NCBI RefSeq assembly: GCF_010614805.1 | Contig: NZ_JAAFZC010000001.1 | Location: forward strand, 970,001 to 1,034,000 | DNA: 64,000 nt | Direction: 5' to 3' | From: Pseudooceanicola aestuarii | GTDB lineage: Bacteria > Pseudomonadota > Alphaproteobacteria > Rhodobacterales > Rhodobacteraceae | Shown: in pieces, positions 43,965 to 64,000 of the stretch | Position numbering within the stretch: the stretch's first letter is position 1 | Layout: every line of letters starts with the position of its first letter | Program-made: the position numbers and the translations under genes | The notes under the pieces: generated by a model | The model's input: the letters and a program-made list of their open reading frames with translations, nothing else | Databases searched by the model: none | Told to the model about the DNA's origin: nothing

Positions 43965-44040
43965 GGGCCGTTAGCTCAGTTGGTAGAGCAACTGACTTTT
44001 AATCAGTGGGTCGCAGGTTCGAATCCTGCACGGCTCACCA
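43965..44040 (+). tRNA. tRNA-Lys (anticodon TTT)
   Basis: The cloverleaf is complete: acceptor GGGCCGT with ACGGCTC, D stem GCTC/GAGC, anticodon stem ACTGA/TCAGT around CTTTTAA (anticodon TTT), T arm GCAGG-TTCGAAT-CCTGC and encoded CCA. A long hairpin (ACGGGCG...CGCCCGT, 44065-44090) lies 25 bases downstream and may end the transcript. Confidence 0.97.
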
Positions 44041-47314: not shown

Positions 47315-47416
47315 TAGCAGCGAGAGTCCACACTCGAACACTTTCACAACGTATGACAAACGGGCTTTCTATACACAAGCTTTCAAGAGCAGCAAGCTCG
47401 AGAGCCGTATATGAAC
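47314..47416. repeat. 103-bp direct repeat, left copy
   Basis: The sequence from GTAGCAGCGAGAGTCCACAC to GAGAGCCGTATATGAAC recurs in the same orientation at 62246-62348, with about four mismatches near the right part. It starts exactly at the right end of the first IS element. It is AT-richer than the chromosome and I recognise no gene in it. Confidence 0.95.
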
Positions 47417-47783
47417 CGATCGTCAGTAATTTCGGCGCATCCAGCGATCTCCCGCCGCCAAGTTTCTGCCGAGTTAAGAGGCCACACAATGCTGAAGACC
47501 AGCCGCACCTATCGCCAGATGTGTCACGCCGGTGGATTCCATCTGCTCCAAAACGAGACCAGCGGGTAGCACTCGCGTCTGATCCTGGGCACGGGCTTCG
47601 TCACTGCCGCACTCACGCCCTCCGACCACCTCGACATGATCCACGTCCGCAGCGCCGTCCATCGCCTGCAACGCTGAAGAGCACGGAAATACCCGACCAT
47701 GACGATCGCCGCCCATGATGTGCTCGCAGCCCTGATCGCGATGCCGCCTCGCCCGACTGCAGAAGCGCCCGACGATTGCCGGA
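47417..47783 (+). other. Region without a clear gene; possible broken small ORF
   Basis: An ATG at 47489 opens a 26-codon frame stopped by TAG at 47567, and the same frame continues to TGA at 47675. The joined 62 codons look more coding-like than either part alone (GFHLLQNETSG, then HSRLILGTGFVTAALTPSDH). This may be a small accessory gene broken by an amber codon. I cannot assign a family, and nothing else is evident. Confidence 0.3.
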
Positions 47784-48581
47784 TTGGAAGCACAAGTCAT
47801 TGCACTGGCACCACCCGCTGCGAAGGCATGGAACTTCCGCCGGACGGATTCCTATGCTGAACCCGAGGCCCTCGTCGATGCACTGATCGAGCGGCTTGGG
47901 CTAAGCCCCTTCGAGCGGGCCGCGCTCTCACGCCAGAAGGCCCGCTTCGAAGGCGGTGCCGTCGCGGCGGAGAACGTCTTGCCGCCGTTGCCCGCGGGCC
48001 CCTTTCGCTTCTTTGCCCTCGACGTCGAGACGGCCAACCACGACCGCGCAAGCATTTGCCAAGTTGGTGTCGCCTGTATTCGTCCGGACGACAGCATCGT
48101 CACCTGGGTCACCCTTGTTGACCCGCAGACCCGCCATTGGTCGTTTACCGGGCTGCACGGGATCCACGGCGGCATGGTCGGGGACGCTCCGCGTATCAAC
48201 GAAGTTCTGGAGGCCTTGGAGCCGCTGCTGTCGGGCAGTATGGTCTACCAGCACTCCGGATTTGACCGCAGCGCAATCCGTGCTGCCTGTGCAGGGCTGG
48301 GGCGTTCCGAGCCAGATCGGCATTGGCTGGATAGCGTTGGCGTTGCCCGCCGTGCTTGGCCTGAGCTCAAAGGGAACGGTGGGCACGGTCTGGCATCCTT
48401 GAAACAGTTCCTCGGCCTGTCCTTTGAACATCACGATGCCGGCGAGGATGCCTGCGCTGCTGCTCAGGTGGTTCTGCACGCAGAACGCGGCACGGTCGGG
48501 CGGCACAAAGTGCCGCGCGCGCTCGTCGAGGAAGTCGAGACAACGGCCCTACCCCCCGCCGAGCATCTGCCGACTGGGTGA
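47784..48581 (+). CDS. DEDDh 3'-5' exonuclease
   Basis: The 265-aa protein has an exonuclease domain from about residue 75: ExoI FALDVETAN (D and E), ExoII QHSGFDRSAI (D) and ExoIII HHDAGEDAC (H and D), the DEDDh pattern of DNA polymerase III epsilon-like nucleases. The first 70 residues are a helical extension. There is no ATG; TTG 47784 is the likely start, though the N-terminus could be altered. The reaction is removal of nucleotides from 3' ends; the biological role in this island is unknown. Confidence 0.8.
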   Translation: MEAQVIALAPPAAKAWNFRRTDSYAEPEALVDALIERLGLSPFERAALSRQKARFEGGAVAAENVLPPLPAGPFRFFALDVETANHDRASICQVGVACIRPDDSIVTWVTLVDPQTRHWSFTGLHGIHGGMVGDAPRINEVLEALEPLLSGSMVYQHSGFDRSAIRAACAGLGRSEPDRHWLDSVGVARRAWPELKGNGGHGLASLKQFLGLSFEHHDAGEDACAAAQVVLHAERGTVGRHKVPRALVEEVETTALPPAEHLPTG

Positions 48582-48852: not shown

Positions 48853-50679
48853 TCAGAGGCCCTGCAATAGCATCTTCAGGTCTTCTGCCACTTCTGGATC
48901 TCCTGGAAGAGCTTTCCCCAGCCCATGTCCACCTTTTTGTCCTTTATCTGTGGCTGACCTGCGCACGGCTGAAAGGAGTTCTTTGCCTACATATGTGAAC
49001 TCTCTGCCGCGCTCAGAAAGCTTATCTCGCGCTTCTGCCGTTCCCACATACTCAGCCTCGCCTTTTCGGTAGGCTGGTATCTGTTTGAGCACCTCTGTCC
49101 GTTTACAGTTGAAGCGCTTTGCAGCATCCTCTGCGTCGAGCAGATCGCATGCGTCATTGATCAACTCGCGGGCTTCCTCCGCAGACACTGCAAACTCAAA
49201 TGAAACTACGGCATCATTGATCCAGTAAGACTCAATGTCTGAGCCATTTGTGAACCAGACCGCGATATCTTGATCGCTGTAAGGCTGCGCGAGAAGAGCT
49301 TGTTCCTTTTGCAGCATGAAATCGCAATCCCTGTGGAGCACGATCTTCATTTTATTACCGAACAACTGTCGAAGGCCTGCGATGCTCGCTGCCGGAGGAA
49401 GGCTTGAGCTACCGCGGGCAGGCCAGATTGCGGTCTTCTGAAACAAGGTTGGCCACTGGCTGAGCAGCTTGTTCAACATGCCAACCTTATCATCCTCGGT
49501 TACCAACAGGATGCTCTTGTCCAGCAAGCCCCAACCCATGTCGCGCCGGATTTCATCAGTATTGTCGCTGGCAACCTTTCCTTGTTTCATCCAGATGAGC
49601 GTCGCATCCACAGTAAGAGCTCGAACGACACTGGGGCTGTGCGTAGTAAGGAGAACTTGGCAGTCATACTTGATGGCTGCATCCATGAGAGCGAGAGTAA
49701 GTCGTTCTTGCGCATCGGGATGAAGATGCGAATCCGGCTCATCGACCAAGAGAAGCCGAGGTCGGAAATAAACCAAATATGCAAATATCTGGATGACTTG
49801 TAGAAATCCGATACCGGCCAGCTCCAACGGCTTAAAGCGCTTAGGATCGGCGACTTTCATCGCTTCCGTTTGAAACGCAGCATTTATTTTGTAGTCTTTT
49901 TCATCATCGAAAGTGACTTGGAGGTTTAGTGGCCCCAAGACTCGAGACACAAGTTCCTCGACTTCTGCAAGACCATCCGCTCCATGTGTCGACGCGGTTG
50001 CCTTGAGCAACTCCAATATATTTCTGAGAACCGTATTTGCGTCGCCTGCCGCTGCTTGGCGGTGGACAATCCTCTTAGACCGCTTTTCCTCAGACAATGG
50101 TATGCCCGCAAGTCCCGGAATATATGCGGAAATTTCCCGCTGCTGAGATCGTATTAGCGTAGTGATCAGATTGTTGGAGGGAATATGGACGCTAATACCT
50201 TCGTTTCGTGCGGACTTGATCCACATCGAGCTTCCGATGGTCGGTGCCCCATCAATGCTTGCTTCGATTTCCAAATCCATTCTGGGAGCTGCGGCAAAGT
50301 TGCCATACTCGGTTGAATGAGAAGCATTCTTGTATTCTGGCGACGGCATGTATGTCGCTTCGAGCTCCGAAAGAGTGGAGGCCTCAGCATTTTTTGTCGC
50401 GGTTGCCGGGGATCGTGGCTCCACGCTTAGATTTCGACCACTCTGTAGCATCCAATGAAGAGCTTGCAGGATAGAGCTCTTTCCGCTGCCATTGGTTCCC
50501 ACAATAACCGTGAAATCTGACAACGGAACGGTGGTTTCCTCGATCGCCTTAAAGTTTTTGATCGTGGCTTTCGTCAGCTTCATAGCCCCGGAACCTGAGC
50601 CGGATTTTTCGCCCACGTCGCCATGGACATTGGCAACTTCATCAATCTGGTCGATTTCGGACGTAGTGTTGCCGCTCAT
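48853..50679 (-). CDS. OLD/RloA-type AAA ATPase with C-terminal TOPRIM-like region
   Basis: This 608-aa protein has an SMC/ABC-like ATPase half: Walker A GTNGSGKSS (residues 61-69), Walker B LLLVDEPDSHLHP (about 309-321) and H-loop LLTTHSPSVVRAL. The C-terminal half has ILLVTEDDKVGMLN (E and DD) and VLHRDCDFM (DxD-like), which resembles a TOPRIM/DUF4435-type nuclease region of OLD-family proteins; the divergence leaves nuclease activity uncertain. OLD-family proteins often act in phage defence. The GC content is clearly lower than its neighbours, indicating transfer. The start may be 50679 or the later ATG at 50583 (MKLTKATIKNF). Confidence 0.85.
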   Translation of the reverse strand: MSGNTTSEIDQIDEVANVHGDVGEKSGSGSGAMKLTKATIKNFKAIEETTVPLSDFTVIVGTNGSGKSSILQALHWMLQSGRNLSVEPRSPATATKNAEASTLSELEATYMPSPEYKNASHSTEYGNFAAAPRMDLEIEASIDGAPTIGSSMWIKSARNEGISVHIPSNNLITTLIRSQQREISAYIPGLAGIPLSEEKRSKRIVHRQAAAGDANTVLRNILELLKATASTHGADGLAEVEELVSRVLGPLNLQVTFDDEKDYKINAAFQTEAMKVADPKRFKPLELAGIGFLQVIQIFAYLVYFRPRLLLVDEPDSHLHPDAQERLTLALMDAAIKYDCQVLLTTHSPSVVRALTVDATLIWMKQGKVASDNTDEIRRDMGWGLLDKSILLVTEDDKVGMLNKLLSQWPTLFQKTAIWPARGSSSLPPAASIAGLRQLFGNKMKIVLHRDCDFMLQKEQALLAQPYSDQDIAVWFTNGSDIESYWINDAVVSFEFAVSAEEARELINDACDLLDAEDAAKRFNCKRTEVLKQIPAYRKGEAEYVGTAEARDKLSERGREFTYVGKELLSAVRRSATDKGQKGGHGLGKALPGDPEVAEDLKMLLQGL

Positions 50680-51378: not shown

Positions 51379-53736
51379 TCAGCTCGCACCGTAGATGTCC
51401 ATAAGAAGATCCGGGTTTGTCCCTTCGCCGAGCAATTCCTCCTTGAGATCCCGTAGAATCGGCAAGATCTTGTCGCGTCGCCGCTGGAGGTTGGCACTCG
51501 GTCTACGGCGGCCAATCAGATCAACTTCGACTTCCTCGATGATCGCCAGGAAATCGTCGGCCAAGGGATCAATGCCAGACACCAGGGCCGTGGGGTCTTT
51601 GAGGCGCCACCTGAGAAGACCCGCGAGCAGAAAGGGCGCGTAGTTGAACTTGGTGTATTCTTCACCGATGTTGCGCCTAAAGTCCGTCAGCGTGCGGCTT
51701 GCCAATCTGTCAACGTCCTCCCGAGACAGCAGCATCGGGGTCATATCCGACCGCGACAGCAGAAAGGCCATGCACGCGCTTTGCCGATTCCACACCCAGT
51801 TCTCGACGTCCGAGGACAGAAGCATCTCGACGACGCGCTCAACGGCCTCCTCATCGCGAAGGATCCGTCCCAGCCCCTGGTAGACGAGGACCCAGCTCAT
51901 CTGGTGACGCACGAACGGGTGGGCCCGCCCACACGTCTCGATGCACTCCGTCAACCATTTGACCACGTCGGTCGGACACCGCCGGAACTGCCATGTCAAG
52001 AACTTCAAGGCCGCGTTGTCTTCGGTCCCTGCGCCCGTTTCGCCGGCCAGGCGTCTGCGTGTAACGTCCAGCGCCTTGTCCGTCAGGATATCGAGTCGCT
52101 CAATTTCCTCCCGGCCGATCTCGGCGGGAAGATCTCCATCGCTGGAGATGCAGTATTGCCCGAACGGCCGTTGCGACAGCTTCGCCGCGAGCGTTTCCCA
52201 ATCGGGGTTGATGCGGAAGGGTTCCGACTGGAGAAGACTGAGCAGACCATCGGCGCGAGCGGTGTCTTCCCATGCGGGCATCCCGCATGGAAGAACCAAG
52301 CGCTGCGGGATTGAGACATGGTGCTGTTGGCTTTCGATGATCTCATCCCAAGATCGGGCATCTTCTTGTGCATCGTCCCAGTCGACCGTGAAGATCCGAC
52401 CCAATATTGGCGCTTCCATCAGGATTCTTGCCCGACCGGCCGCCGGTTTCTGCTCGACCCAGAGCGACACGGCCGCCTGTTCCCTCAGCGGCGTGCCGAT
52501 CGCGATGGTCGCCTTTCGCGGTGGTGGTGAAGCTTCCTTTCGAAGATACACGGAGACATTCTCCTGCCCCGCCGGTATCGCGAGCGTTGCCGGGTTAGGG
52601 CTCCGATAAGTGCGGCCGGCTTCAAGCGTCTCTTCCGGTCTAATGAGGTCGAAATTCGCCGCGCCATCAGCCCCGTAGACAATGGTGGACAGCCTGGGCA
52701 AGAAGTCGAAAAAGATCGGCACCCCGTTCCCGGCCCTATGCGCCGCAAGCAAGGCGCCGTGTGCCACGGCCGGTGCCGGCAGCACGCTAAGGGAAACGGG
52801 CGACGAGCTCCCGATACTTGCGGCGATGCGGTCCTTGAGAGCCCCTTCGGTCAGCGTCTCCAGGAGCACCACGTCGCAGCCCTGCAGGTCGAGAACCTCG
52901 TTAAATTCCGTCACCTTGTCGGCAGCTTGGTATCCGCTCAACTCGAGGAGTTCCCAGTCCCCGTTCTGGACCCGAACCATCTCGGGCGGACAAGTCAGTC
53001 CCAAGGCCATCTTTCCGACTGAACGTGCGATGGCGCGATGGGCTGTTCTCGATGTGAGGCCGGCCTGACCGATTGCGACCTTACGCGCGGCATGCACGAG
53101 ATTTTCGTATCCGATACTCCCTGGCGTATGCGTCGCAGCCTCGCGCCGTTCCGGTGCCAGGACGCCGCGTGCCCCCCTGATGATAAGGTGTTGAACGGCC
53201 AGGCCACGCCGGTCGTGGCAGACCACACCCACGCGCTGTCCTTCCGCTACGAGACCATGCTCGATTGCATAGAGCGCCGCGAGAACAGGACGCCAGACAA
53301 GCAAGCCGTTCCGATACTTACCGGCGGACAGCGCAGCGAGCAGGTGTTCCTGTGCCGTCTCGGACCCGTCGGGGCCCTCGTCGATTGACGCGATGTTGTA
53401 GGCGGCCCCCTGGGTCGATCCCGCGAAGCAGGACGCCAACTTTGTGACGTCCTCGTCCTTCATTTCGAGGAGCTCCCGGACCGACATGCGGCGCTCTGGT
53501 GCTCCGACTTCACCCCACCCCCCACCAAGTCCGTGAGGAGCGGCGTCTGCCTGAGCGCCTCCGATCCAACGGCTTGTGCCAGCATTTCCGACATTAACAA
53601 CAGAAGTAAGCGGGCCACTTGGAACGACTTCGACGGGGCCGACCTCGTCTTCCTCCCCCGGCCTTGAGCGCCAATTCCTGGCAACGAAGTCGCGCCAACC
53701 GTTCACGTCAAACCCGCAGAACTTCCTGGCTGTCAT
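51379..53736 (-). CDS. Divergent Hsp70/actin-like protein with helical C-terminus (fifth gene of operon)
   Basis: I do not recognise a named family for this 785-aa protein. In order there is a short CGFDVNG motif near the N-terminus in the place of an actin phosphate-1 loop, then RPVLAALYAIEHGLVAEG with GQRVGVVCHDRRGLAVQHLI (about 149-186) where Hsp70 has its phosphate-2 strand. ETLTEGALKDRIAAS leads to APAVAHGALLAA (321-332), like the conserved end of the Hsp70 ATPase domain. Residues 360-445 look like the Hsp70 beta-sandwich (IRPEETLEAGRTY, QENVSVYL). The last 270 residues are helical. The catalytic motifs are degenerate. The start overlaps the previous stop (ATGA). Confidence 0.6.
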   Translation of the reverse strand: MTARKFCGFDVNGWRDFVARNWRSRPGEEDEVGPVEVVPSGPLTSVVNVGNAGTSRWIGGAQADAAPHGLGGGWGEVGAPERRMSVRELLEMKDEDVTKLASCFAGSTQGAAYNIASIDEGPDGSETAQEHLLAALSAGKYRNGLLVWRPVLAALYAIEHGLVAEGQRVGVVCHDRRGLAVQHLIIRGARGVLAPERREAATHTPGSIGYENLVHAARKVAIGQAGLTSRTAHRAIARSVGKMALGLTCPPEMVRVQNGDWELLELSGYQAADKVTEFNEVLDLQGCDVVLLETLTEGALKDRIAASIGSSSPVSLSVLPAPAVAHGALLAAHRAGNGVPIFFDFLPRLSTIVYGADGAANFDLIRPEETLEAGRTYRSPNPATLAIPAGQENVSVYLRKEASPPPRKATIAIGTPLREQAAVSLWVEQKPAAGRARILMEAPILGRIFTVDWDDAQEDARSWDEIIESQQHHVSIPQRLVLPCGMPAWEDTARADGLLSLLQSEPFRINPDWETLAAKLSQRPFGQYCISSDGDLPAEIGREEIERLDILTDKALDVTRRRLAGETGAGTEDNAALKFLTWQFRRCPTDVVKWLTECIETCGRAHPFVRHQMSWVLVYQGLGRILRDEEAVERVVEMLLSSDVENWVWNRQSACMAFLLSRSDMTPMLLSREDVDRLASRTLTDFRRNIGEEYTKFNYAPFLLAGLLRWRLKDPTALVSGIDPLADDFLAIIEEVEVDLIGRRRPSANLQRRRDKILPILRDLKEELLGEGTNPDLLMDIYGAS

Positions 53737-55238
53737 TTCGATGTCTCGTGGATCTCGCCCTGCACGAAATCGCGCACCGCCTGAAACCCCTGCGCAAGGT
53801 CATTGCCGGAAGGTCCGAGCGCGATGGCCCTGACTGCGACCTTGCCGCGAGTAACGCTCGTGGTTTCAGGTCGGCCTCGAGCGGGAGTAATGATGAGCCC
53901 ATGGCGAAGCACCTCGGTCAGGGCCAGCGGCTGCATCTGGTTCAGAAGGGATGCCGCCTCGATGACGCATTCGTCGAGATCCAGCCGTCGCATCGCGTGG
54001 GGCGTCCAGACCGCAACGCGTCGAGGCAAATCCGTTCGACTGGGATCGGAGATCCGCAATGCCACGTGAGATCGCGCGACGCTGAGCAGAGCTCCCGGTT
54101 TCTCCGGACGAGCCTGGACCTCCACGATCCGGTTCGTGTCGCGGAGCCAGAATACCGCGATCGGTCTATCCTGATCGAACCAACGCCCCCCTGCCGCTTC
54201 CTCGTTCCAGGATATCGGGGACTGAGCGACCAGTTCCGCTTCGTCCAGTTCATCGATTGCGAGGATGATCGCGAGAACGGCAAAATCGGTCCACGTCTCC
54301 GCCTGCCACGCCCACAGATCGTCTTCGGTCCTGCGCCGCAGCAGAAGCCGGAGCCAACAATCGTGAACCTCCCTATAGCTGCGGTCCTGCATCAGGACGT
54401 AATTGGGGGTGATGCCGGCAGGCGCGATCGCGACCCCGAGATCCGCAAGCGTTCTCGCCAGGGTCCGGCAAGATTTCCGGAATGCGTCGACCTGACCGTA
54501 GCGCGCGCTGGACTTGGCGCTTGGATGCTCCCGTATCCATTGCCGGGCCGCATCTACGGCCAGGCGCGCATAGGCATGAAGAACGCGGTTTTCCAGAGTA
54601 TCAAAGTTCTCGCGTCTCACGGTCGCAAGGATCCGCTGCGAGGCCCCTGCACGCTCCGGAATGCTTCGGCCGGGTTGCCGGCTGAGCCAGACCATTGATG
54701 CGCGGTCCATCTCTTGGACGCGGTCGAGAGGTGTCAGTTCCCGGTGTCTGCGCAAGACCCGTCGGACCCGTTTCTCAATTTCCCGAAGCACGGGTTGCAT
54801 TCGCCTCGCCTGCCGAACGATTTCAGCCATCCTCGGGTCGGCCTCGTCCTCGGCGCGCTGCCACGCCTCACGCAGGCGCTCCCACAACATAGCTGGATCT
54901 TCGAGCGCTTCCTCCAACTCCTGGATCCTGGCAAGGACTTCGTTCATGTGCTGAAGCGCGGCCGCTCCCTCTTTCTCGGCTTCCGTTACCGGGTCGTGGC
55001 CGAAGCGGGGGCGAACCGGGAAGTCTTCGCGCTCGGGTGCCACAGCATGGTCGCGCTTGGGATAGGGGACCAGCGCCAGGCCCGTGGGCGTGTTCCTCAC
55101 CATGCCGCTGAGAAGCGTCGCATATTCCAGGCCGCGCGGAGCCTGACCCTGGAACTCGCCGAGCAGGCAATCGTTCGGCCCGAACGCTCCGCCTTCGCCC
55201 AAGGACTTGGCTGACCACGGCCGCGTTATCAGCCGCAT
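53733..55238 (-). CDS. DUF2357/McrC-like protein (fourth gene of operon)
   Basis: The 501-aa protein has a helical region (about 80-170), then ENFDTLENRVLHAYARL (about 207-223), the DUF2357 signature of the type 'xxTPENRFLKxxLExL'. The C-terminal part has a possible PD-(D/E)XK site in WFDQDRPIAVFW and TNRIVEVQARP, where the usual lysine is a glutamine, as in some active restriction enzymes. DUF2357 proteins accompany McrB-like ATPases in the way McrC does. ATG 55238 overlaps the stop of the ATPase gene (ATGA), so I prefer it to the ATG 21 bases upstream. Confidence 0.72.
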   Translation of the reverse strand: MRLITRPWSAKSLGEGGAFGPNDCLLGEFQGQAPRGLEYATLLSGMVRNTPTGLALVPYPKRDHAVAPEREDFPVRPRFGHDPVTEAEKEGAAALQHMNEVLARIQELEEALEDPAMLWERLREAWQRAEDEADPRMAEIVRQARRMQPVLREIEKRVRRVLRRHRELTPLDRVQEMDRASMVWLSRQPGRSIPERAGASQRILATVRRENFDTLENRVLHAYARLAVDAARQWIREHPSAKSSARYGQVDAFRKSCRTLARTLADLGVAIAPAGITPNYVLMQDRSYREVHDCWLRLLLRRRTEDDLWAWQAETWTDFAVLAIILAIDELDEAELVAQSPISWNEEAAGGRWFDQDRPIAVFWLRDTNRIVEVQARPEKPGALLSVARSHVALRISDPSRTDLPRRVAVWTPHAMRRLDLDECVIEAASLLNQMQPLALTEVLRHGLIITPARGRPETTSVTRGKVAVRAIALGPSGNDLAQGFQAVRDFVQGEIHETSK

Positions 55239-57256
55239 CAGCGTGAGACCCCTCTCCACACGAACTGCCCCGTGGCCTCGGACAGGCGCACGGACTCGTC
55301 GATCGCCTCGGCCAGTGGAGCATCGCCCAGATCGCGATCGACAAAGGTCATCAAGTTGGAGAATTGCGGAGCCGCCATGTCGACTTCGACGCCACGGAGC
55401 TTGGGCAGGAGGCGCATCTCGACCTGGTCAGCCAACGCGTCGTCGACGCCGCGACCGCCCTCGACCTCCGGGTAATTCGCCGCGTAGGCCATAATCGCCC
55501 GGCCCAGGCGATGACCGAAGGGACGCTGAAACTCGCGCATTAGGTCGACCATCTGCTCGACCCTTGCGGTCACCCGGGCATCCCCGTCAACGTGGGCGCT
55601 CGAGCGGCCCCACCTCGTCCAGGTTTCTCGCGATAGAGCCCTGGTCGGTTCGACGTCGCCTTCCGCATGACCTTCGTTGATTTTCTTCGGCGCCGCGAAG
55701 CGCAGGATGTTCGCTCGGTCGACGACCTTGTCGGACAGGGACTGCGTGCTTTCGTCCTCGTTCATCGTGCCTGCGAACAGAAGGTTGTAGCCGGGGAAGA
55801 TCCGCGGCGGCATCTGCATGTTCGGAATTTCAAGCTCGATCTCGGCATCCTTGCGTTCATTCGCATCGCCCACATCGCTTGGGCGCGGGCGACTTTCGAG
55901 GCGGCTCAGGAAATCCGAGAAGTAATATTCGACCCGGGCAAGGTTCATCTCGTCCAGCAGGATCATCATCATGCGATCCCGGTCCGCTTCCTCATTGTGC
56001 AGCTCGTCCACGGCCCAAAGCGCGCGCGCCATGTCCGTTGGGCGGAACTTGCCTTCGATGTAGTTGTAGAACCCCATGAGGTCTTGCGGGCTGTCCCAGC
56101 GCGGCTGAACTGGCACCTGAAGAAAGCCGATCCCCATGCCGGCGGCGTATTGCCGTGGCAACTGGCTCTTGCCCGTCCCGGAGATGCCGGCGAGCACGGC
56201 CATTTGGGTCGTCTCATTGACCTTCATCGCGGTATGGAAGGCACGCAGCGTCCGCGTCGGGTAATGGAGGCCTTTTGCGCGAAGCCGTCTCTCCACCCGC
56301 TGGATTGCGTCCGCTTCGTTCTTTTGCGGCGCGGGCTTCCAGGATCGCATCGCCACGACGACCGGAGGCGTTTCCTTGAGTTCGCGCAGCGGATCGGTTT
56401 CGACGGTCTCGCCATCGACAGAGCGGCCTTCGCTGCGTGCGATTTCGGCTTTCAGGTGTGCCAACCTCGCCTCAAGCGTGCTGCGCGTTTCCTCCAGCGT
56501 TTCGATTTCGGCGGTGATGCGCCGCGCCTCCTGGCCCTGTGCCGCGACATCGGCGGCCAGTCGGCCATGCTCGGTCTGGGCCGTGGCCAATGCCTCGCGT
56601 TCCGACGAGACCCGCGCCTCGAGGTTTCCCAGCTCGCTTTCCTGTGCGGCCTGGCGGCCCTCGAGGCGGGAATTGGTCGTCTCAAGCTCCTGCGCCCGGG
56701 CCTCAAGGCGCGAGACCTTCTCGTCGGCCTCTTCCAGTTCCCTTTTCCTGTCCCGCAGCTCGTCGACCTGCGCCGAAAGCGTTCCGTGCTCTTCCTTGAG
56801 AGAGTCGATGCGCCCAACCAGCTCTTCGGCCTTGTTCAGGCGGTCCTGAATTTCGAGGTACTCGGCGCGCAGCGGGGCGATTTCCGTCTCAAGCTGCTGA
56901 CGCTCGACGGCGGCTTCCTCGGTTTCGCGGCGCACCGCCGCGACTTCGTCCCGCCGTTCCCGAAGGCTTTCCCATTCCTGAAGCAGCTCTTCCTTCTGCC
57001 GGCGCAGGCCATCCACTTCGGCCTGCACATCGGCGACCACGGCCATCGCCTCTCGCCGCTTCTCAAGCTCGGCTTCGAGGTCATCCATGAGCCGCTGTTT
57101 TTCTTCGAGCCTCTTCTCGTAGACCGAGAGTTCCTCGATGGGACCGGCGGCGGTGACCGCCCGGTCATGCCGGGTGGCCAAGAAAAGCTGCACCAGCGCA
57201 AGCAGGATCAGGACACCCGCCGTCGCAAGCACGATGATCGTGTTGTCCGTAAGCAT
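55238..57256 (-). CDS. Membrane-anchored coiled-coil McrB-like AAA+ ATPase (third gene of operon)
   Basis: The 672-aa protein has one N-terminal membrane helix (about 7-27), a long coiled coil (about 40-275) and an AAA+ domain with Walker A AGISGTGKSQLP (356-367), Walker B MMMILLDEMNLARVEYYFSD and sensor-type FAGTMNEDESTQSLSDK (494-510). The LDEMNLARVE and GTMNEDE motifs are those of the McrB branch, which uses GTP in McrBC; whether this one hydrolyses ATP or GTP is unknown. The start overlaps the stop of the preceding gene (TAATG). The helix and coil suggest an oligomer tethered to the inner membrane. Confidence 0.85.
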   Translation of the reverse strand: MLTDNTIIVLATAGVLILLALVQLFLATRHDRAVTAAGPIEELSVYEKRLEEKQRLMDDLEAELEKRREAMAVVADVQAEVDGLRRQKEELLQEWESLRERRDEVAAVRRETEEAAVERQQLETEIAPLRAEYLEIQDRLNKAEELVGRIDSLKEEHGTLSAQVDELRDRKRELEEADEKVSRLEARAQELETTNSRLEGRQAAQESELGNLEARVSSEREALATAQTEHGRLAADVAAQGQEARRITAEIETLEETRSTLEARLAHLKAEIARSEGRSVDGETVETDPLRELKETPPVVVAMRSWKPAPQKNEADAIQRVERRLRAKGLHYPTRTLRAFHTAMKVNETTQMAVLAGISGTGKSQLPRQYAAGMGIGFLQVPVQPRWDSPQDLMGFYNYIEGKFRPTDMARALWAVDELHNEEADRDRMMMILLDEMNLARVEYYFSDFLSRLESRPRPSDVGDANERKDAEIELEIPNMQMPPRIFPGYNLLFAGTMNEDESTQSLSDKVVDRANILRFAAPKKINEGHAEGDVEPTRALSRETWTRWGRSSAHVDGDARVTARVEQMVDLMREFQRPFGHRLGRAIMAYAANYPEVEGGRGVDDALADQVEMRLLPKLRGVEVDMAAPQFSNLMTFVDRDLGDAPLAEAIDESVRLSEATGQFVWRGVSR

Positions 57257-58884
57257 TATTGATTTCCTTCTTCACTTGCGGGCTGGGCGGCCTCGTCGTC
57301 CGTCTCGATACCCTCGTCCGAAGGTGCGGTTGCCTCGGCGGGGCTTGCCACAGTCCCGGCCGGCTGTTCAGGTGTTTCCGTCTCCGGCTTCGCTGGCATG
57401 TCGGCCAGCCTCGCGCGGGCTGCGGACAGCGCTTCATGGGCTTCGGAAATGCGGTCGTTCAGCCGCCGAAGCTCGGTATTGCGTTCGTCGATCCGTGCGC
57501 CGAGCTGTTCGAGTTCCGAGCGAACGCTCTGAAGGCTGGCCCGCGCTTCTTCGGCAGCGGCCTCGGCCGTCTCGGACGAAATCCGGAGCCGGTCGCGACG
57601 TTGGACGAGGCGATCGATTTCGGTTTCCAAGCTCGACTCGCGGCCGGTCAGTTCGGCGACGCGTGTCATCGCCGCCTCTACCTCTGCTTCAGCGGTGGCC
57701 AGGCTGTCCCTTGCCTCCTGAAGACTGCTTTCAAGATCCGGCAGGGCGGTTTCGAGCGTCGAGCGGCGCGTCGCCAGACGGTCGACCTCCGCCTGAAGGT
57801 TTCGAAGTTCGGCGCGGCTGGCCTCGAGCGCCGCAAGCTCTTCCTCGGCGGCGGCGACGTCCGCCAGCAGGGCCGACAGTCGGGCGCTGTCGGCGGCGAG
57901 GTCTTCTCGGACAGTCTCGAGGGTTTCGGTCGCCTCTGCGCGTCCCGCCTCGGTCCGGGCCAGCGCGGTCTCGGCCACATCGGCTTCGTTCTGAAGAACC
58001 GAAAGGCGCCGTTCCGCCCCCGCGACAGCCGCCTCGAGGTCGGACTCCTCTGCCGCAAGAGCGTCGACCGCCGCCGCGAGGTCATCGCGGCGCGACTCGG
58101 CTTCTTCTATTTCCGCGTTCCGCGCGCGCAACCGGTCGCCCGATGCCTCGATATCCCGCTCGAGTGTTGCCAGTTCCGCCTCTGCCTCCGCTATGTCCGC
58201 GGTTAGCGCATCCCTGTTGCCGGCAAGTTCGTCCTCTTCCTCCGACAGTCGCTCGACGCGGCGCTCTTGGGCGCGAAGATCCTCGACAGTGGGGGCAAGC
58301 CGATCCACCTCGGCCTGAAGATCCGACCGCCGCTCTTCGAGGGTGTCGAGCGCGCGCCTTTCCGTTTCGACGTCGGTGGACAAGTCCCGCTGTCGGGCAT
58401 CGAGCTGCTCCACGTCGTCTTCCAGATCGGCAATTTCGACGTCGAGATCTGCCTTGCGTTCCAGCGCCGCAGTGGTTTCGCGGTCCAGCCGCTCAGCCTC
58501 GGCAATGATCCGACGTGCTTCCGCAAGGCGTTCTTGAACGGCGGTCAGCTCGGCCTGGCTTTGTTCAAGGCGCGCGACGGCATCGGCTTCGCGCTGCGCG
58601 GCGCTTTGTCGGTTGTTTTCGGCGCTGGCAACCTCCTGATCCAGATTCTGGATCCGATCCGACAGCTCGCGATATTGTTCGCGCGCGATCTCCAGCCGTT
58701 GCTGCTCCGAGTTCAATTGTTCCGTGTAGTACGTAAGGTTCTCTTCGATGCGCCCATATCTGCGATCCAACGAGTTTACCTGCATCACCAAGAAACCGGA
58801 GGCAATGATCGCAGCGCCTCCCAGAAACAGCGCGACCGCGGTGTTTCTGCTCGACTTACGATAGGTCTTGTTCGACTCGGTCAA
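57256..58884 (-). CDS. Membrane-anchored long coiled-coil protein (second gene of operon)
   Basis: A 542-aa protein with one membrane helix (ALFLGGAAIIASGFLVM, about 17-33), an almost continuous coiled coil (about 40-485, rich in Glu, Arg, Leu, Ala) and an acidic, Pro/Thr-rich tail ending ASEEGNQ. I chose TTG 58884 because GGAGGGG precedes it; longer in-frame options lie inside the helicase gene and are less likely. The first 29 bases overlap the helicase gene. No enzyme domain is present. Together with the similar N-terminus of the ATPase it could form a membrane scaffold or partner coil. Confidence 0.75.
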   Translation of the reverse strand: MTESNKTYRKSSRNTAVALFLGGAAIIASGFLVMQVNSLDRRYGRIEENLTYYTEQLNSEQQRLEIAREQYRELSDRIQNLDQEVASAENNRQSAAQREADAVARLEQSQAELTAVQERLAEARRIIAEAERLDRETTAALERKADLDVEIADLEDDVEQLDARQRDLSTDVETERRALDTLEERRSDLQAEVDRLAPTVEDLRAQERRVERLSEEEDELAGNRDALTADIAEAEAELATLERDIEASGDRLRARNAEIEEAESRRDDLAAAVDALAAEESDLEAAVAGAERRLSVLQNEADVAETALARTEAGRAEATETLETVREDLAADSARLSALLADVAAAEEELAALEASRAELRNLQAEVDRLATRRSTLETALPDLESSLQEARDSLATAEAEVEAAMTRVAELTGRESSLETEIDRLVQRRDRLRISSETAEAAAEEARASLQSVRSELEQLGARIDERNTELRRLNDRISEAHEALSAARARLADMPAKPETETPEQPAGTVASPAEATAPSDEGIETDDEAAQPASEEGNQ

Positions 58885-61800
58885 GACACCCCTCCATATC
58901 ACTTGATAGTTCGTCCACCCAGAACCGGCGCACGCGCCAGCCAAGGGATTTCAGTTGATGGTCGCGCCAGAGGTCCGAGGTCTTTCGGCGCCCATCCGGG
59001 CTTTCGTGCCACCTGCGCCCATCCACCTCGAGATCGAGCTTTGTGCCGCTCGCACCGAACAGCGCGAAGTCGAGCCGCCGCCCCGCGATCTCGTGCTGGG
59101 GGTGCGGATCCAGGCCCCGCTCTTTCAGCGCGTGGTAGACCTTGCGCTCCCAATCGCTGTCGAAAACACCCTCGCCTTTTCTGGTCCGCGGCTCAGTGGC
59201 CACCGCAGCGAGCTTCCCGAGCGCCTTCGACTGACCGGTCCGCGCGAACCCGAGATCACCGAATACGATGGCAACGGCGCGAGCGCGAGAAATGGCGACA
59301 TTGAGGCGACGAGTGTCCCTCTGGAAAAACGTCATCCCGGATTGCGGACTGCGTGGCCCGACACAAGGTGAAAAAAGGATTAGATCGCGTTCCTGTCCCT
59401 GGAAACCGTCGACCGTTCCGACCTTGAAGTCGCAGGCCGTCAGCTTGGGCCGGTCGATGGCCGCCAAAATCGCGGTCTCGAGCGCGAGAACTTGTGCTCG
59501 AAAGGGGGTGATTACACCAATGCTGCCACCATATTCTTCGTCCACCAGGAGCTTTCGCAAATGCCGCACGATCGCGGAGACTTCGGCCGGGTTGACATTA
59601 CCAATCTGTGGGATCGCCGGCGCCGGCACATCCTCCCACGCGATGCCCGGTTTGACACCGGCCGGCACCACCAGCCCTCGCGGATCATGCGAGGTCTGCA
59701 GCTGGCCCCCGTAGAAGGTCTCGCTGATATAATCGACGATCGGCCCTGCTGACCTGTATTGATGGCGCAGCGTGATCCTCCGGGCGTCCGGAACCCGCGA
59801 CGCGAAATCGAACAACGACCTACGGCTCTGCGCGAACCGCCCCATTCTGGAGACGGGCAGGCCCTGGGCCTGCATAAGGTTGCGATCCTGGGCCTGGCCG
59901 AGCTGGGGGATGAAGGACAGCTGCCTGTCGTCGCCCACCACAACCGCCCGTTTCGCTCGGGCAAAGAGTGGGATCGCCGTGGCGATATCGCACTGGCTCG
60001 CTTCGTCGAAGATCACGAGATCGAACAGGCCGTCGTCGAGTGGAACGCGCCGAGGGGTCCCGAGGATCGATGCGAGCCACAGGGGCCGATGACTCATCAA
60101 GGCCTTCGAAAGGTCGGATGGCGGATGTCCCTTGCCACCGTTGAACGTCCAATCGTCGTAGTTTTCGGATAATTCCCGCCGCTCGCCCTCGGAGAGGTGG
60201 CACCGGGCCGAAAAGATGACGGGCAGAAGCTGGCCTGTCGCCTCGCGGATCCTCTCGCCCAACTCGATCGGATCTTCCGGATCGCCCAGCCTTTCTCTCA
60301 TCGAGCGCAGGGTCACCAGTGTTCGCCGAAGGTCTGAAAGACTCATGCCGCGACGTTCGAGGTTGTCCGGGATAGCCGCTTCCCCCCGAACGGCTCGGTC
60401 GGTGAAGACCGATCGGAGCCAAGAAATCAGACGCCGCAGGACACCCGTGGACGCCTCTCGGGCCTGTGTTGGCGTGACCTCATCTCGGCCATGCGCTTCA
60501 TGCAGATCAATCCGTTCGAGGACGTCCGATATCTCGCATTCGAGCTCGGCAATACGATCGATCGCATCGACAGCCTCCGTCCGCCGGTGCGCCGTATCGA
60601 TCAGCTTGTCCAAGGCCAATTCGTCTACGGAGGTCGCCCGCGATCGGCTCTCGTTCTCCAAGAGTTTCCTGAGCGCATCCGAAAATCCAGTGTCCGTCTC
60701 GTCATTGGGATTGAGCGTGCGAACCGTGAATGGCACGTCCGGCGCGAGAGACCCGAGGCGATCCTCCACCGCATCAAGGGCCTGGTGGTTCTTGGACGCG
60801 ACCAAAACGCTCCCGCCGGCCGCAAGGACGGAGGCCGCCATTGAGACGATCGCCTGGCTCTTCCCGGTTCCAGGTGGGCCGGTCACGACCGTGAGCGGCT
60901 CCTCGCAGGCACCGCGGACGGCGCGCAATTGCTCCTTGTTCAAGGGGACCGCATCAATGGCCTCGACAGGATTCGCGTTCGTTACGCCTTTGATCCCGAG
61001 CACTTCGCCGAGCGCCGTCCGCGCGATCCGCTCCGATGGCCACGTCGCGATTGTGTCGAGGTCGCGCGCCGCACCTGCAGTGAACGACGAGTCGGTCGGG
61101 AGGACGATCGCCGCGCTGTCATAAATGCCTTGAGCGGAGGCATCGAGCTGGGAAGCGAGATCCTCCCCCACCAGGCGCCCACGAATCTGGCTTGCGACGG
61201 CAACCCTGAGCTTCTCCAGGAAATCATCCGCGCGTAGTCCGAGGCCATCGTCCGCGGAGAAAAGGTCAGCCAGATCTCCACGATTCCAGCCGCTCGCACG
61301 GGCGGCACTCCGCACCCAGTCCGGGTTCAAAAGGACGTCGTCAGCATCGACCGTCAGCACGAGTGTTTCGGCCTCCCGCTTCCAAGCGGCGGCCAACATC
61401 CCGACGGGCTGGAATATCGGCACGCCGCCACGGCGACCCACCGCGATGGGCCAGCCGATTGCGAGCGCGTTCTCATGGCCTTCTCGACGAACGAGAGCTT
61501 CCTGAAAAGCAGGGTTGATTGCAGCAAGATCAATCGAAATTCGAAGGCAACGGTCCTCTCCGGGGTTGATGGGGCCCCGTCCGGAAATGAGCGACCATTC
61601 GATCCCGTGCTTATCGGCTACTTGCGTGATTGCGCCACGTGGATCGGCACGCAGTGCAGAACGCCAGTATCTGATAAGCGCTTGAGGATCGACACTTCCA
61701 TCTCCAGCGCTCTCTACATCAAACGGTTCTACCGAAAGTGGCTCAGACGCGAATGTTGCAGCGGCCGCATGAATGACGGTTTCAGAACCCGCGTCTTTTT

Positions 61801-62029
61801 GTTGCGTGGTTACCGCCACACTTGGCGCACCTGTCGCGAAGTTCATGCGCTTGGCGCGCCAACGCCCATCATGTGCCTTTTCAACAAGGCCATCTCTCAA
61901 TAGCTGGTCCAGCTCAGCGATCGCAGCGAGCCGCTTGTCATGAGAAAAAGCAGCACCGACAAGCACAAGCAATTCTTCGGTAGTTCGACCTCGCGGAAAA
62001 GCCCGCACCATCTTCAATACCAAAGACAC
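58856..62029 (-). CDS. SF1 (UPF1-like) helicase with C-terminal DUF559/Vsr-like endonuclease (first gene of operon)
   Basis: The 1057-aa protein has an N-terminal helical part (possibly winged-helix, 1-65), a linker, and an SF1B helicase core: Walker A TGPPGTGKSQ (383-392), motif II FDEASQCD (674-681), III GDDRQL (699-704), IV LRHQYRS (754-760), V TVDGFQGQERD (872-882) and VI NVAISRAR (910-917). Residues 955-1057 form a PD-(D/E)XK domain of the DUF559/Vsr type: FDSDWERKVYHAL, RRLDFAL (D987), LDLEVDGRRWHE and LGWRVRRFWV. It starts the operon; the next start is inside its last 29 bases. Confidence 0.88.
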   Translation of the reverse strand: MSLVLKMVRAFPRGRTTEELLVLVGAAFSHDKRLAAIAELDQLLRDGLVEKAHDGRWRAKRMNFATGAPSVAVTTQQKDAGSETVIHAAAATFASEPLSVEPFDVESAGDGSVDPQALIRYWRSALRADPRGAITQVADKHGIEWSLISGRGPINPGEDRCLRISIDLAAINPAFQEALVRREGHENALAIGWPIAVGRRGGVPIFQPVGMLAAAWKREAETLVLTVDADDVLLNPDWVRSAARASGWNRGDLADLFSADDGLGLRADDFLEKLRVAVASQIRGRLVGEDLASQLDASAQGIYDSAAIVLPTDSSFTAGAARDLDTIATWPSERIARTALGEVLGIKGVTNANPVEAIDAVPLNKEQLRAVRGACEEPLTVVTGPPGTGKSQAIVSMAASVLAAGGSVLVASKNHQALDAVEDRLGSLAPDVPFTVRTLNPNDETDTGFSDALRKLLENESRSRATSVDELALDKLIDTAHRRTEAVDAIDRIAELECEISDVLERIDLHEAHGRDEVTPTQAREASTGVLRRLISWLRSVFTDRAVRGEAAIPDNLERRGMSLSDLRRTLVTLRSMRERLGDPEDPIELGERIREATGQLLPVIFSARCHLSEGERRELSENYDDWTFNGGKGHPPSDLSKALMSHRPLWLASILGTPRRVPLDDGLFDLVIFDEASQCDIATAIPLFARAKRAVVVGDDRQLSFIPQLGQAQDRNLMQAQGLPVSRMGRFAQSRRSLFDFASRVPDARRITLRHQYRSAGPIVDYISETFYGGQLQTSHDPRGLVVPAGVKPGIAWEDVPAPAIPQIGNVNPAEVSAIVRHLRKLLVDEEYGGSIGVITPFRAQVLALETAILAAIDRPKLTACDFKVGTVDGFQGQERDLILFSPCVGPRSPQSGMTFFQRDTRRLNVAISRARAVAIVFGDLGFARTGQSKALGKLAAVATEPRTRKGEGVFDSDWERKVYHALKERGLDPHPQHEIAGRRLDFALFGASGTKLDLEVDGRRWHESPDGRRKTSDLWRDHQLKSLGWRVRRFWVDELSSDMEGCLDRVEQDLS

Positions 62030-62245
62030 TTTTCAGACCTGAAAATTAAATGAGCTATTCCATCGAAATAGCCGACGATCACGCTGTTGCGCGTGCAGAA
62101 GATAGGTGATGCCCCATCTGATCATGTGGATTTCATTCGCCTTCCACTCCAAGGAGTTATAGCGAGTATCGGGTTTCTGCGCGGAAACATTTAAGACTTC
62201 TTTCAACGATCCAGACACCGCGAGACGGCACCTTTGCTTCCGTCC
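62030..62245 (-). promoter_or_regulatory. Leader/promoter region of the five-gene operon
   Basis: The 216 bases between the helicase start and the right repeat are AT-richer than the genes. On the minus strand TTGAAA and a later TATAAC are candidate promoter boxes, but their spacing is not ideal. A frame encoding LEWKANEIHMIRWGITYLLH exists here and could be a short leader or a gene remnant; I do not support it as a gene. Confidence 0.4.
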
Positions 62246-62348
62246 GTAGCAGCGAGAGTCCACACTCGAACACTTTCACAACGTATGACAAACGGGCTTT
62301 CTATACACAAGCTTTCAAGAGCAGTAACCTGGAGAGCCGTATATGAAC
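62246..62348. repeat. 103-bp direct repeat, right copy
   Basis: This is the same sequence as 47314-47416 in the same orientation. It stops exactly where the second IS element begins (62349). The two copies enclose 14,829 bp. Left of it the sequence differs from the IS that adjoins the left copy; right of the left copy the sequence differs from the IS here. The true repeat may therefore have been longer and was clipped on opposite sides. Confidence 0.95.
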
Positions 62349-62371
62349 TGACCTGCTCCCCATTGAGTCCG

Positions 62372-63228
62372 CTAATTTGGGTTAGCTCTGTTCAGGTTTT
62401 GGTCCTTCTTTGACCGGTTAGCATATTCCGCTGGCGTGAGGCCAGCGAGGCTTGTGTGTGGGCGGTGGTAGTTGAAGTCGGTGCGCCAGGCAGCGATCAG
62501 GTCGCGGGCGTGGCGCAGGCTATCGAACAGGTGCTCATTCAGACATTCGTCGCGCATCCTGCCGTTGAAGCTTTCGACAAACCCATTCTGCATCGGCTTG
62601 CCAGGGGCGATATAGTGCCAGTCGACCTTGCGGTCTTCTTGCCCTTTCAGGATCGCGTTACTGGTCAGCTCGGTTCCATTATCGCTGACCACCATGCATG
62701 GGTAGCCCCGCATTTCGGCAATCCTATCCAGCTCACGACCTACGCGGTCACCTGACCTGAGAGCGAGGTGTCGACCACAGCGGCCAGACATTCGCGGCTG
62801 AAGTCATCAATCACGTTCAAGATGCGGAACCGGCGACCGCACGATAGGCTGTCAGACACGAAGTCGAGCGACCATCGCTGGTTCGGCCCCTGTGGGATCG
62901 TCATGGGTGCTCTGATCCCGATGGCGCGCTTGCGTCCGCCACGTTTACGCACTGTTAATCCTTCTTCGCGGTAGATCCGATACAGCTTCTTCCAGTTCAT
63001 GTGCCAGCCTTCGCGCTGCAGCAGAATGTGCAGCCGACGATAGCCAAACCGTCGACGCTCAAACGACAGTTCTTTCAACCGCCCACGCAGCTCCGTATCC
63101 GCTGGCCGCTTCGACACACGTCGATAGACCCGTGGATCAATACCGGCCAAGGCACAGGCGCGCTTTTGATTGTATCGCTTCTCTTTCATGGCCCAGGTCA
63201 CGGCGTTTCTGCGTGAGCCGGGCCTCAA
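62372..63228 (-). pseudogene. IS3-family OrfB transposase broken by a 5-bp duplication
   Basis: The frame is intact through RWSLDFVSDSLSCGRRFRIL and DDFSRECLAAVVDTSLSG, then shifts. The tandem CCTGA-CCTGA at 62751-62760 (TCAGG twice on the coding strand) adds five bases and ends the frame at 62740; the remainder continues in another frame with VVSDNGTELTS and NGFVESFNGRMRDECLNE. Removing one TCAGG restores a full-length DDE transposase, so this copy is probably recently inactivated. Confidence 0.85.
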
Positions 63229-63491
63229 AAGTTTTTTCCCAGCATTTCCTTGAGCGTCGACACGTCCATCATCTGCTCAGCCAGCAACTTCTTTAGCTTG
63301 GCGTTCTCAACTTCCAGTGCCTTCAGCTTCTTCGCATCAGACACTTCCATCCCGCCATACTTGGACCGCCATTTGTAAAATGTCGCATCGCTGATACCGT
63401 GCTTGCGGCAAAGCTCCTTCGCTCCAAGCCCAGCCTGATGCTCTTTCAATATCCCAATGATCTGTTCTTCGCTGAAACGGCTTCTCTTCAT
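63225..63491 (-). CDS. IS3-family OrfA (helix-turn-helix subunit)
   Basis: The 88-aa protein has the typical HTH of IS407-group OrfA (FSEEQIIGILKEHQAG, ELCRKHGISDATFYKWRSKY) followed by a leucine-zipper-like coil (LKALEVENAKLKKLLAEQM). It overlaps the beginning of orfB and ends GKNF at the A6 run where ribosomes would slip. It appears intact. Confidence 0.93.
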   Translation of the reverse strand: MKRSRFSEEQIIGILKEHQAGLGAKELCRKHGISDATFYKWRSKYGGMEVSDAKKLKALEVENAKLKKLLAEQMMDVSTLKEMLGKNF

Positions 63492-63518: not shown

Positions 63519-64000
63519 CTAACTCAAAACACCGGACGTTTCAGGGGAGCAGGTCAAGATCGTCTCGGGCAGCGCCTCTTCCGCACCTTGTCTCCACAAC
63601 TCGGCCTGCTCCCTACGACGTGCCAAGGTTTCGTGCCACTCTTGGGCCTCGCGATCTTTGAAGAAGTTGGCGTCCGGCGCCAAGCGGTTCACAGCATCTT
63701 CCACCTCCTCCAGGTCGACGCGAAAGAACTCCTTGCGCATATTTGAAACGTTGATCCGGCGGTCGGCGAATTCCCGGTGCAGGGCGTTCTCGAGAGCTGG
63801 CGCCTCGTCCGAATAAATCATGGCGTGCGTGTCGAAGCCGAACGGCACGCTCGCGTCGCCCAACTCCTTCACGCGATCGTCCGGATCAAGGCGTCGGGTC
63901 AGGCCGATCTTGACGACCTCTTCGCCGAAGCTGCCGATGTTCGAGATGATGTAGACGTAACCAGACTTCGTCATCTCGGCCATCGCTTTCGCGCGCTCTG
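63519..64000 (-). CDS. T5orf172/DUF4041-type GIY-YIG protein, C-terminal part, 3' end cut by IS
   Basis: The readable part shows the GIY-YIG-like T5orf172 domain: GYVYIISNIGSFGEEVVKIG, RVKELGDASVPF and EKALHREF-like ENALHREFADRRIN, KEFFRV. The family usually has a longer N-terminal coiled-coil (DUF4041), and the frame stays open through the right edge of the window, so the start is outside. The last about 13 codons (after 63558) come from the IS sequence, so the native C-terminus is lost. GIY-YIG proteins of this kind are common in phage and defence islands; activity here is uncertain. Confidence 0.8.
   Translation of the reverse strand, partial: ERAKAMAEMTKSGYVYIISNIGSFGEEVVKIGLTRRLDPDDRVKELGDASVPFGFDTHAMIYSDEAPALENALHREFADRRINVSNMRKEFFRVDLEEVEDAVNRLAPDANFFKDREAQEWHETLARRREQAELWRQGAEEALPETILTCSPETSGVLS

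Follow-up and report, generated by a model that had tools for sequence, protein, structure and literature searches.

Results

The 64,000-nucleotide stretch of Pseudooceanicola aestuarii analysed here (contig NZ_JAAFZC010000001.1, positions 970,001 to 1,034,000; called the window below, with positions counted from its first letter) carries on its minus strand five overlapping genes in the order cnuH, cnuA, cnuB, cnuC, and cnuD (Table 1), which almost certainly form a complete Type III-B CoCoNuT. An initial annotation made from the letters alone had called the same five genes, and all five calls stand. The junctions it gave are correct for the 29-base overlap of cnuH and cnuA, for TAATG between cnuA and cnuB, and for ATGA between cnuC and cnuD, but the cnuB/cnuC junction, given as ATGA, is actually TGATG. 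No gene lies between cnuH and cnuA, and their overlap places the start of cnuA at a TTG codon (58882-58884) within the end of cnuH. TTG was the cnuA start codon in 30 of 30 loci, its position being set in each by a sequence pattern or, where the pattern failed, by the first start of the frame; a conserved weak start of this kind may keep CnuA scarce.

Gene for gene, the locus matches the Type III-B definition of Bell et al. 2024 (PMC11090510, used here and below through its passages on this and related types), from which the names CnuA and CnuD come. Shared with that definition are all five genes, a helicase fused to a Vsr-type nuclease, a long coil fused to an McrB GTPase with an NxD motif, a separate coil (CnuA), the lack of a separate CnuE, a CnuC with DUF2357 and an inactivated PD-(D/E)xK fold lacking the catalytic lysine, a separate Hsp70-like CnuD, and a host among the Alphaproteobacteria; likewise, no TerY-P was found among the ten window or near-window neighbours submitted to Pfam. 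Because of this match we reject the initial proposal of an undescribed system, and the pairing of an Hsp70-like subunit with a separate coil, initially taken for an unrecognised combination, belongs to the set that PMC11090510 describes. The broader initial reading, of a CoCoNuT-related, probably nucleic-acid-targeting and membrane-anchored defence operon, is upheld.

Table 1. Genes and features of the cnu operon in the window
Feature	Coordinates	Strand	Description
cnuH	58856-62029	minus	1057 amino acids; Pfam AAA_11, AAA_12, MTES_1575, DUF559; orthologues at 48-97% local identity
cnuA	57256-58884	minus	542 amino acids from TTG; predicted transmembrane segment, long coiled coil, Pro/Ala-rich tail
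cnuB	55238-57256	minus	672 amino acids; predicted transmembrane segment, coiled coil, McrB-like AAA+ GTPase with NxD motif
cnuC	53733-55238	minus	501 amino acids from ATG; DUF2357/McrC-like, inactivated nuclease fold
cnuD	51379-53736	minus	785 amino acids; Hsp70-like nucleotide-binding and substrate-binding domains (residues ~3-458) and C-terminal helical array
CnuH helicase core	59216-60943	minus	residues ~363-938; K390, D675, E676 invariant in 31/31
CnuH Vsr/DUF559-type nuclease domain	58862-59149	minus	residues 961-1056; MTES_1575 E 2.8e-15
CnuA predicted transmembrane segment	58783-58839	minus	residues 16-34; hydropathy 2.28
CnuB predicted transmembrane segment	57182-57238	minus	residues 7-25; hydropathy 2.76
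Divergent-allele segment relative to Tropicimonas L003	55817-59090	minus	cnuH end, whole cnuA, cnuB codons 1 to ~480 (ends approximate)

In CnuH, AAA_11, AAA_12, MTES_1575, and DUF559 all scored above the Pfam cut-offs, bearing out the superfamily 1 helicase-DUF559 nuclease first called from the letters; the latter two domains we take to be a Vsr-like PD-(D/E)xK nuclease. Its residues E961, D987, E1001, D1003, H1008, and K1016 were invariant in 31 of 31 sequences, and chains of UPF1, SEN1, and SMUBP-2 were matched in the Protein Data Bank (E 2e-15 to 2e-16). The first 60 residues are conserved and, as judged by eye, resemble a winged helix-turn-helix (wHTH), and Walker A (384-391) and Walker B (675-676) lie about 285 residues apart; for Type III-B, PMC11090510 describes a CnuH with an N-terminal wHTH, an OB fold, and a helical coiled-coil insertion after Walker A. 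The helicase core also resembles MkoA of Mokosh in PADLOC (1.5e-54), and the CnuB coil has a match to MkoC at E 0.15 only; membership in Mokosh was rejected, the helicase being the only part that matches meaningfully. Separately, cnuH is interrupted in five Rhizobium copies (L018, L026, L033, L034, L048), in one of which (L048) an IS21 pair directly precedes the remaining part, and a single frame at L032:9422-11278 matches both CnuH and CnuD, an apparent scar of a large deletion.

The McrB-like AAA+ call for CnuB was confirmed by the PADLOC profile PDC-M26A (8.9e-49) despite a Pfam score below cut-off, and the NxD motif, which according to PMC11090510 mostly has E or D after it, was present as GTMNEDE in 35 of 35 distinct CnuB sequences. 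SMC-type profiles match the coiled coil (residues ~41-285), and for FtsB homology CnuB gave only a non-significant match to FtsL_2 (E 0.49). The remaining two initial calls were settled by predicted structures: CnuC, for which Pfam DUF2357 fell under its cut-off (E 1.4e-4, 21.6 bits against 23.3), has McrC as its best fold match, and CnuD, for which no Pfam family was matched, has DnaK. No lysine was found at the presumed nuclease-motif place of CnuC, a place judged by eye, in 24 of 24 sequences. The helical array of CnuD occupies residues 498-784, outside the region that the fold matches cover; PMC11090510 describes HEAT-like repeats in CnuD.

A Phytobacter plasmid locus (L047), which we assigned to Type III-A from annotations of a DUF2357 fusion, CARF, a phosphatase, and a kinase, has homologous CnuH, CnuB, and DUF2357 parts (E 1e-10 for CnuH, 7e-66 for CnuB, and 9e-15 for CnuC, in a BLAST against four proteins only), with identities of 30.5% over 640 columns for CnuB and 32% over 172 columns between CnuC and CnuCD. 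It differs in that its DUF2357 lies within a 1348-residue protein (CnuCD under the scheme of PMC11090510), a separate gene stands in the place of CnuE, phosphatase and kinase genes are annotated alongside, and its CnuB has no transmembrane segment. At L014:3190-7068, cnuC and cnuD form one frame of 1292 residues, as in Type III-A, although the cnuB of that contig is split. A Jannaschia plasmid carries a CnuD-like gene by itself (35% identical; L050:13034-15352), near genes for a nitric oxide synthase oxygenase and a radical SAM protein; the 16 annotated genes of the plasmid include none under the name of another operon member.

A single hydrophobic segment (hydropathy at least 1.54 over 19 residues) lies at the N terminus of CnuA in 30 of 30 loci, and CnuB has one predicted N-terminal transmembrane segment in all 32 complete N termini, the sole CnuB without it being that of L025, which starts at a contig edge. 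Duplicates (L026, L033, L034, L048, L068) were removed before the segment, residue, and TTG counts, and the segment counts exclude partial CnuA (L009, L015), missing CnuA (L011, L014, L025), and short CnuB (L011, L014). Residues next to the membrane segments are conserved as well. Ten further McrB-like frames, among them the CnuB assigned to Type III-A and one (L044) that may lack its true N terminus, were each without an N-terminal segment. It is position, conservation, and charge pattern, and not hydropathy alone, that make the case for membrane tethering of both coiled-coil proteins, which the initial annotation had claimed and which we regard as very probable.

In CnuA, the 15 residues on either side of the segment carry a mean net charge of +2.73 before it and -0.83 after it, the N side being the more positive in 30 of 30. 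Since the more positive flank lies on the cytoplasmic side (the positive-inside rule), the N terminus would be cytoplasmic and the coil would lie on the outer side of the inner membrane, a placement that we favour by a little. The flank charges of CnuB lean towards a C terminus inside (20 for, 10 ties, 3 against; n = 33), in agreement with the need for a cytoplasmic GTPase.

The copy in Tropicimonas (L003) has CnuH, CnuC, and CnuD each 97% identical to those of the window, and the flanks of the two operons differ, save for an exonuclease-type gene that is placed differently. Synonymous divergence (dS) in this pair was 0.12 in cnuH, 0.06 in cnuC, 0.10 in cnuD, and 0.28 in the GTPase part of cnuB, as against 2.14 in cnuA, 2.80 in cnuB codons 1-40, and 1.38 in cnuB codons 41-300. 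By 60-codon intervals, the proportion of synonymous differences was 0.61-0.82 in cnuA and 0.41-0.74 over cnuB codons 1-480, after which it fell to 0.04-0.09; elsewhere in the operon it was 0.00-0.27, except in the last intervals of cnuH (0.38 and 0.57). Because synonymous sites differ as much as the protein does within this segment, cnuA with the first ~480 codons of cnuB is, on the pattern of substitution, a replaced (exchanged) allele and not a product of faster drift.

The pair was drawn from a comparison of 28 loci, including duplicate L068 and L018 with its partial CnuH, made before L076, L078, and L079 were added; of the six pairs it gave, one was a duplicate and two were too distant (dS >1 over nearly the whole operon), leaving three usable. 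Mean identity across the 28 loci was lowest in the CnuA coil (30%), the values being 57% for CnuH, 69% for the CnuB GTPase, 59% for CnuC, and 46% for CnuD. CnuB at 99% identity to that of the window was present in two metagenomic clusters, and the window's cnuB allele may thus occur elsewhere; one of these clusters and a CnuD cluster at 95% both have a longest contig of 20079, a match in length from which their shared origin is guessed. A protein search with CnuA returned one protein, perhaps because coil words are uninformative.

All five genes occur together in 30 of the 35 distinct loci that hold CnuB, the window included and one of the 30 (L018) with an interrupted cnuH, which makes the grouping more than a chance one. 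Of the five incomplete loci, three (L009, L015, L025) end at a contig edge and two (L011, L014) have broken genes. A CnuD profile search of GTDB species genomes gave 34 loci, of which 27 hold CnuB and seven do not (L002, L006, L008, L012, L027, L029, and L032; contig ends or decayed) and were left uncounted. The same profile was found in 14 of 394 genomes of the family and 14 of 390 of the order, both including the window's own genome and the two draws overlapping, and in 1 of 385 of the class, its own, although rhizobial copies are known from other searches. The two listed genomes of the same genus were without the operon. Across the phylum, CnuB was found in 9 of 398 genomes at 1e-10, full-length only in the window's own genome and one other (G205). 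Copies lie on rhizobial plasmids and on one viral contig, the latter being the single locus from a scan of 51 viral stretches.

Neighbours of the loci include BREX and Type I restriction genes. PADLOC was run on 87 of 200 neighbour open reading frames (ORFs), hand-picked at about 250 amino acids or more, with some of that size and all those from L005, L009, L048, L049, L051, and L052 omitted; among its best matches were BrxL and PglZ (E 0), PglX, a Type I restriction enzyme (E 0), Cas3e (1.4e-188), and ZacB (5.6e-162), the scan giving families and not the number of matching proteins. As a control, 21 core ORFs of the window matched no family at 1e-10, these being mechanically called ORFs of one region. 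One rhizobial copy adjoins an annotated Shedu nuclease gene. A conserved sixth gene was sought by clustering the 200 neighbour ORFs, the window's downstream side excluded, and rejected, as no family had more than 4 members.

In the window itself, part of a 4.2 Mb genome, G+C content is mostly lower from ~44 kb onward than before, and a tRNA-Lys gene lies at 43965-44040. A 109-base direct repeat (95%) at 47311-47419 and 62243-62351 flanks a 15-kb block. In the Tropicimonas copy an exonuclease-type gene lies just upstream of cnuH across the repeat, and its counterpart in the window (47784-48581) lies at the far end; judged by layout, one arrangement looks like a circular permutation of the other about the repeat. 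Putative IS3-type transposase genes with rve and HTH_21 domains are found on both sides (62372-63491 and 46145-47251). The gene at 48853-50679 encodes an OLD/AAA_15-type ATPase matched by the PADLOC profiles AriA, NsnB, and Old at 3e-32 to 1e-29 and is possibly a second defence gene; no matching ORF was found in the 34 loci at E 1e-5. A gene with DUF4041 and T5orf172 (GIY-YIG type) lies at 63519-64000 and continues in L052:1620-3071; genes of both kinds, DUF4041 and GIY-YIG, are also found by annotation in the vicinity of the Rhizobium tropici copy.

Discussion

Taken as a whole, the explanation that we prefer is that the locus is a complete, horizontally moving, antiviral Type III-B CoCoNuT of the McrBC family that is anchored in the inner membrane, and we put its probability at about 0.7. 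For Type III-B, both the antiviral role and the RNA- or DNA-targeting activity are given in PMC11090510 as predictions only. As our search found no experiment on the subtype, we infer the antiviral role, which we consider likely. The conservation of the CnuH nuclease residues in 31 of 31 sequences, beside the missing CnuC lysine in 24 of 24, makes CnuH the likely cutting enzyme, with CnuC probably stimulating the CnuB ring, in the way that PMC11090510 describes for McrC and McrB. CnuB would form a membrane-tethered GTPase ring of the McrB type, into which CnuC would dock, stimulating GTP hydrolysis without cutting. CnuD, which according to the argument of PMC11090510 probably recognises RNA or protein, would bind RNA or unfolded protein as trigger or target and not act as a chaperone. 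The membrane position and the exchange of CnuA and the CnuB coil point to recognition or assembly at the inner membrane, with CnuA and the CnuB anchor and coil as the fast-changing part, and a specificity role for them is conceivable, if somewhat doubtful. The signal would then reach CnuH, whose helicase and Vsr-type nuclease would cleave the nucleic acid of the phage or, as the less favoured option, RNA of the host.

Several observations weigh against this reading. No experiment on Type III-B was found in the one open-licence library searched. Pfam gave for CnuB only the sub-cut-off AAA_5 (E 0.0063, 16.9 bits against 22), a search of solved structures by CnuB sequence gave no match at E 0.01, and the sequence likeness of CnuD to the Type III-A CnuCD is barely detectable (5.8 bits by profile), the link being made through the fold. 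Hydropathy is not proof of a membrane helix: internal stretches of soluble controls reached 1.76 and the CnuH helicase core 2.02, and the lowest CnuA value (1.54, in L016) lies under those maxima. The topology comes from charge counts and not from a trained predictor, and the rule is weak for CnuB. The full exchange signal, finally, was seen in one of three close pairs only; L004/L005 gave a milder one, with a gap of 136 residues and about twice the dS in cnuA, and in L049/L051 a rise was seen in cnuD and not in cnuA.

This last point bears on whether CnuA and the CnuB coil might be inert spacers, the difference between the window and Tropicimonas being due to one chance recombination event that means nothing for function. 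Fast drift is common in coil sequences, and the single full exchange and the variation of cnuD in L049/L051 would fit such a view; however, synonymous sites that differ as strongly as the protein speak for a replaced allele over drift, and both membrane segments, the residues beside them, and the TTG start are conserved. We treat inert spacers as a serious possibility short of an even chance. A further rival would make the operon a host machine for membrane stress or for RNA or protein quality control, in which an Hsp70-like protein would act as sensor beside an AAA+ ring and a helicase-nuclease, and which would not be primarily antiviral. Its Hsp70-like and UPF1-like parts do belong to quality-control families, and the membrane segments would suit it, but the patchy presence, the copies on rhizobial plasmids and a viral contig, a near-identical operon whose surroundings are mostly different, the decayed copies, and the defence neighbours all suit mobile defence better, and we judge the quality-control explanation improbable.

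Membership in CoCoPALM instead of Type III-B is very improbable. PMC11090510 describes for CoCoPALM an McrB with an FtsB-like transmembrane and coiled-coil part, associated with pilus-assembly signal peptidases, and a transmembrane segment followed by a coil is what CnuB has here. This likeness, as well as the difference in partner genes, is drawn from the paper's description and not from sequence; no signal-peptidase family was found among the ten neighbours given to Pfam, and the locus has CnuH, CnuA, and a separate CnuD, as PMC11090510 gives for Type III-B. Elsewhere among the CoCoNuTs, Druantia I and II are counted as Type IV in the part of a 2025 preprint used here (PMC12458937).

The preferred reading, a membrane-anchored Type III-B CoCoNuT, could be taken a step further, to Type III-B systems as trans-envelope sensors with a periplasmic CnuA coil, a cytoplasmic CnuB ring, helices joined in the membrane, and an exchangeable specificity cassette, an idea that we offer as unlikely but worth stating. 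The anchored coil would be swapped by recombination like the specificity subunits of restriction enzymes, and invading DNA or an envelope signal would be met at the membrane while the helicase-nuclease fires inside.

The locus is, then, almost certainly of a known and named kind, to which conserved anchors, predicted opposite topologies, and an exchanged anchored part are added here. These go beyond the passages of PMC11090510 drawn on here, which give CnuA only the coil and for Type III-B name no sequence exchange such as that between the window and Tropicimonas; the word transmembrane stands in the paper six times, each time on another subject than Type III-B. Two membrane subunits would change how Type III-B, a predicted subtype already named in 2024, could work. 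The suggestion in PMC11090510 of possible contacts between the CnuA coil and the system's other coils would have to be reconsidered if the CnuA coil is outside the inner membrane. A near-identical pair of operons with different cnuA-cnuB segments would, moreover, be a natural experiment on the specificity part.

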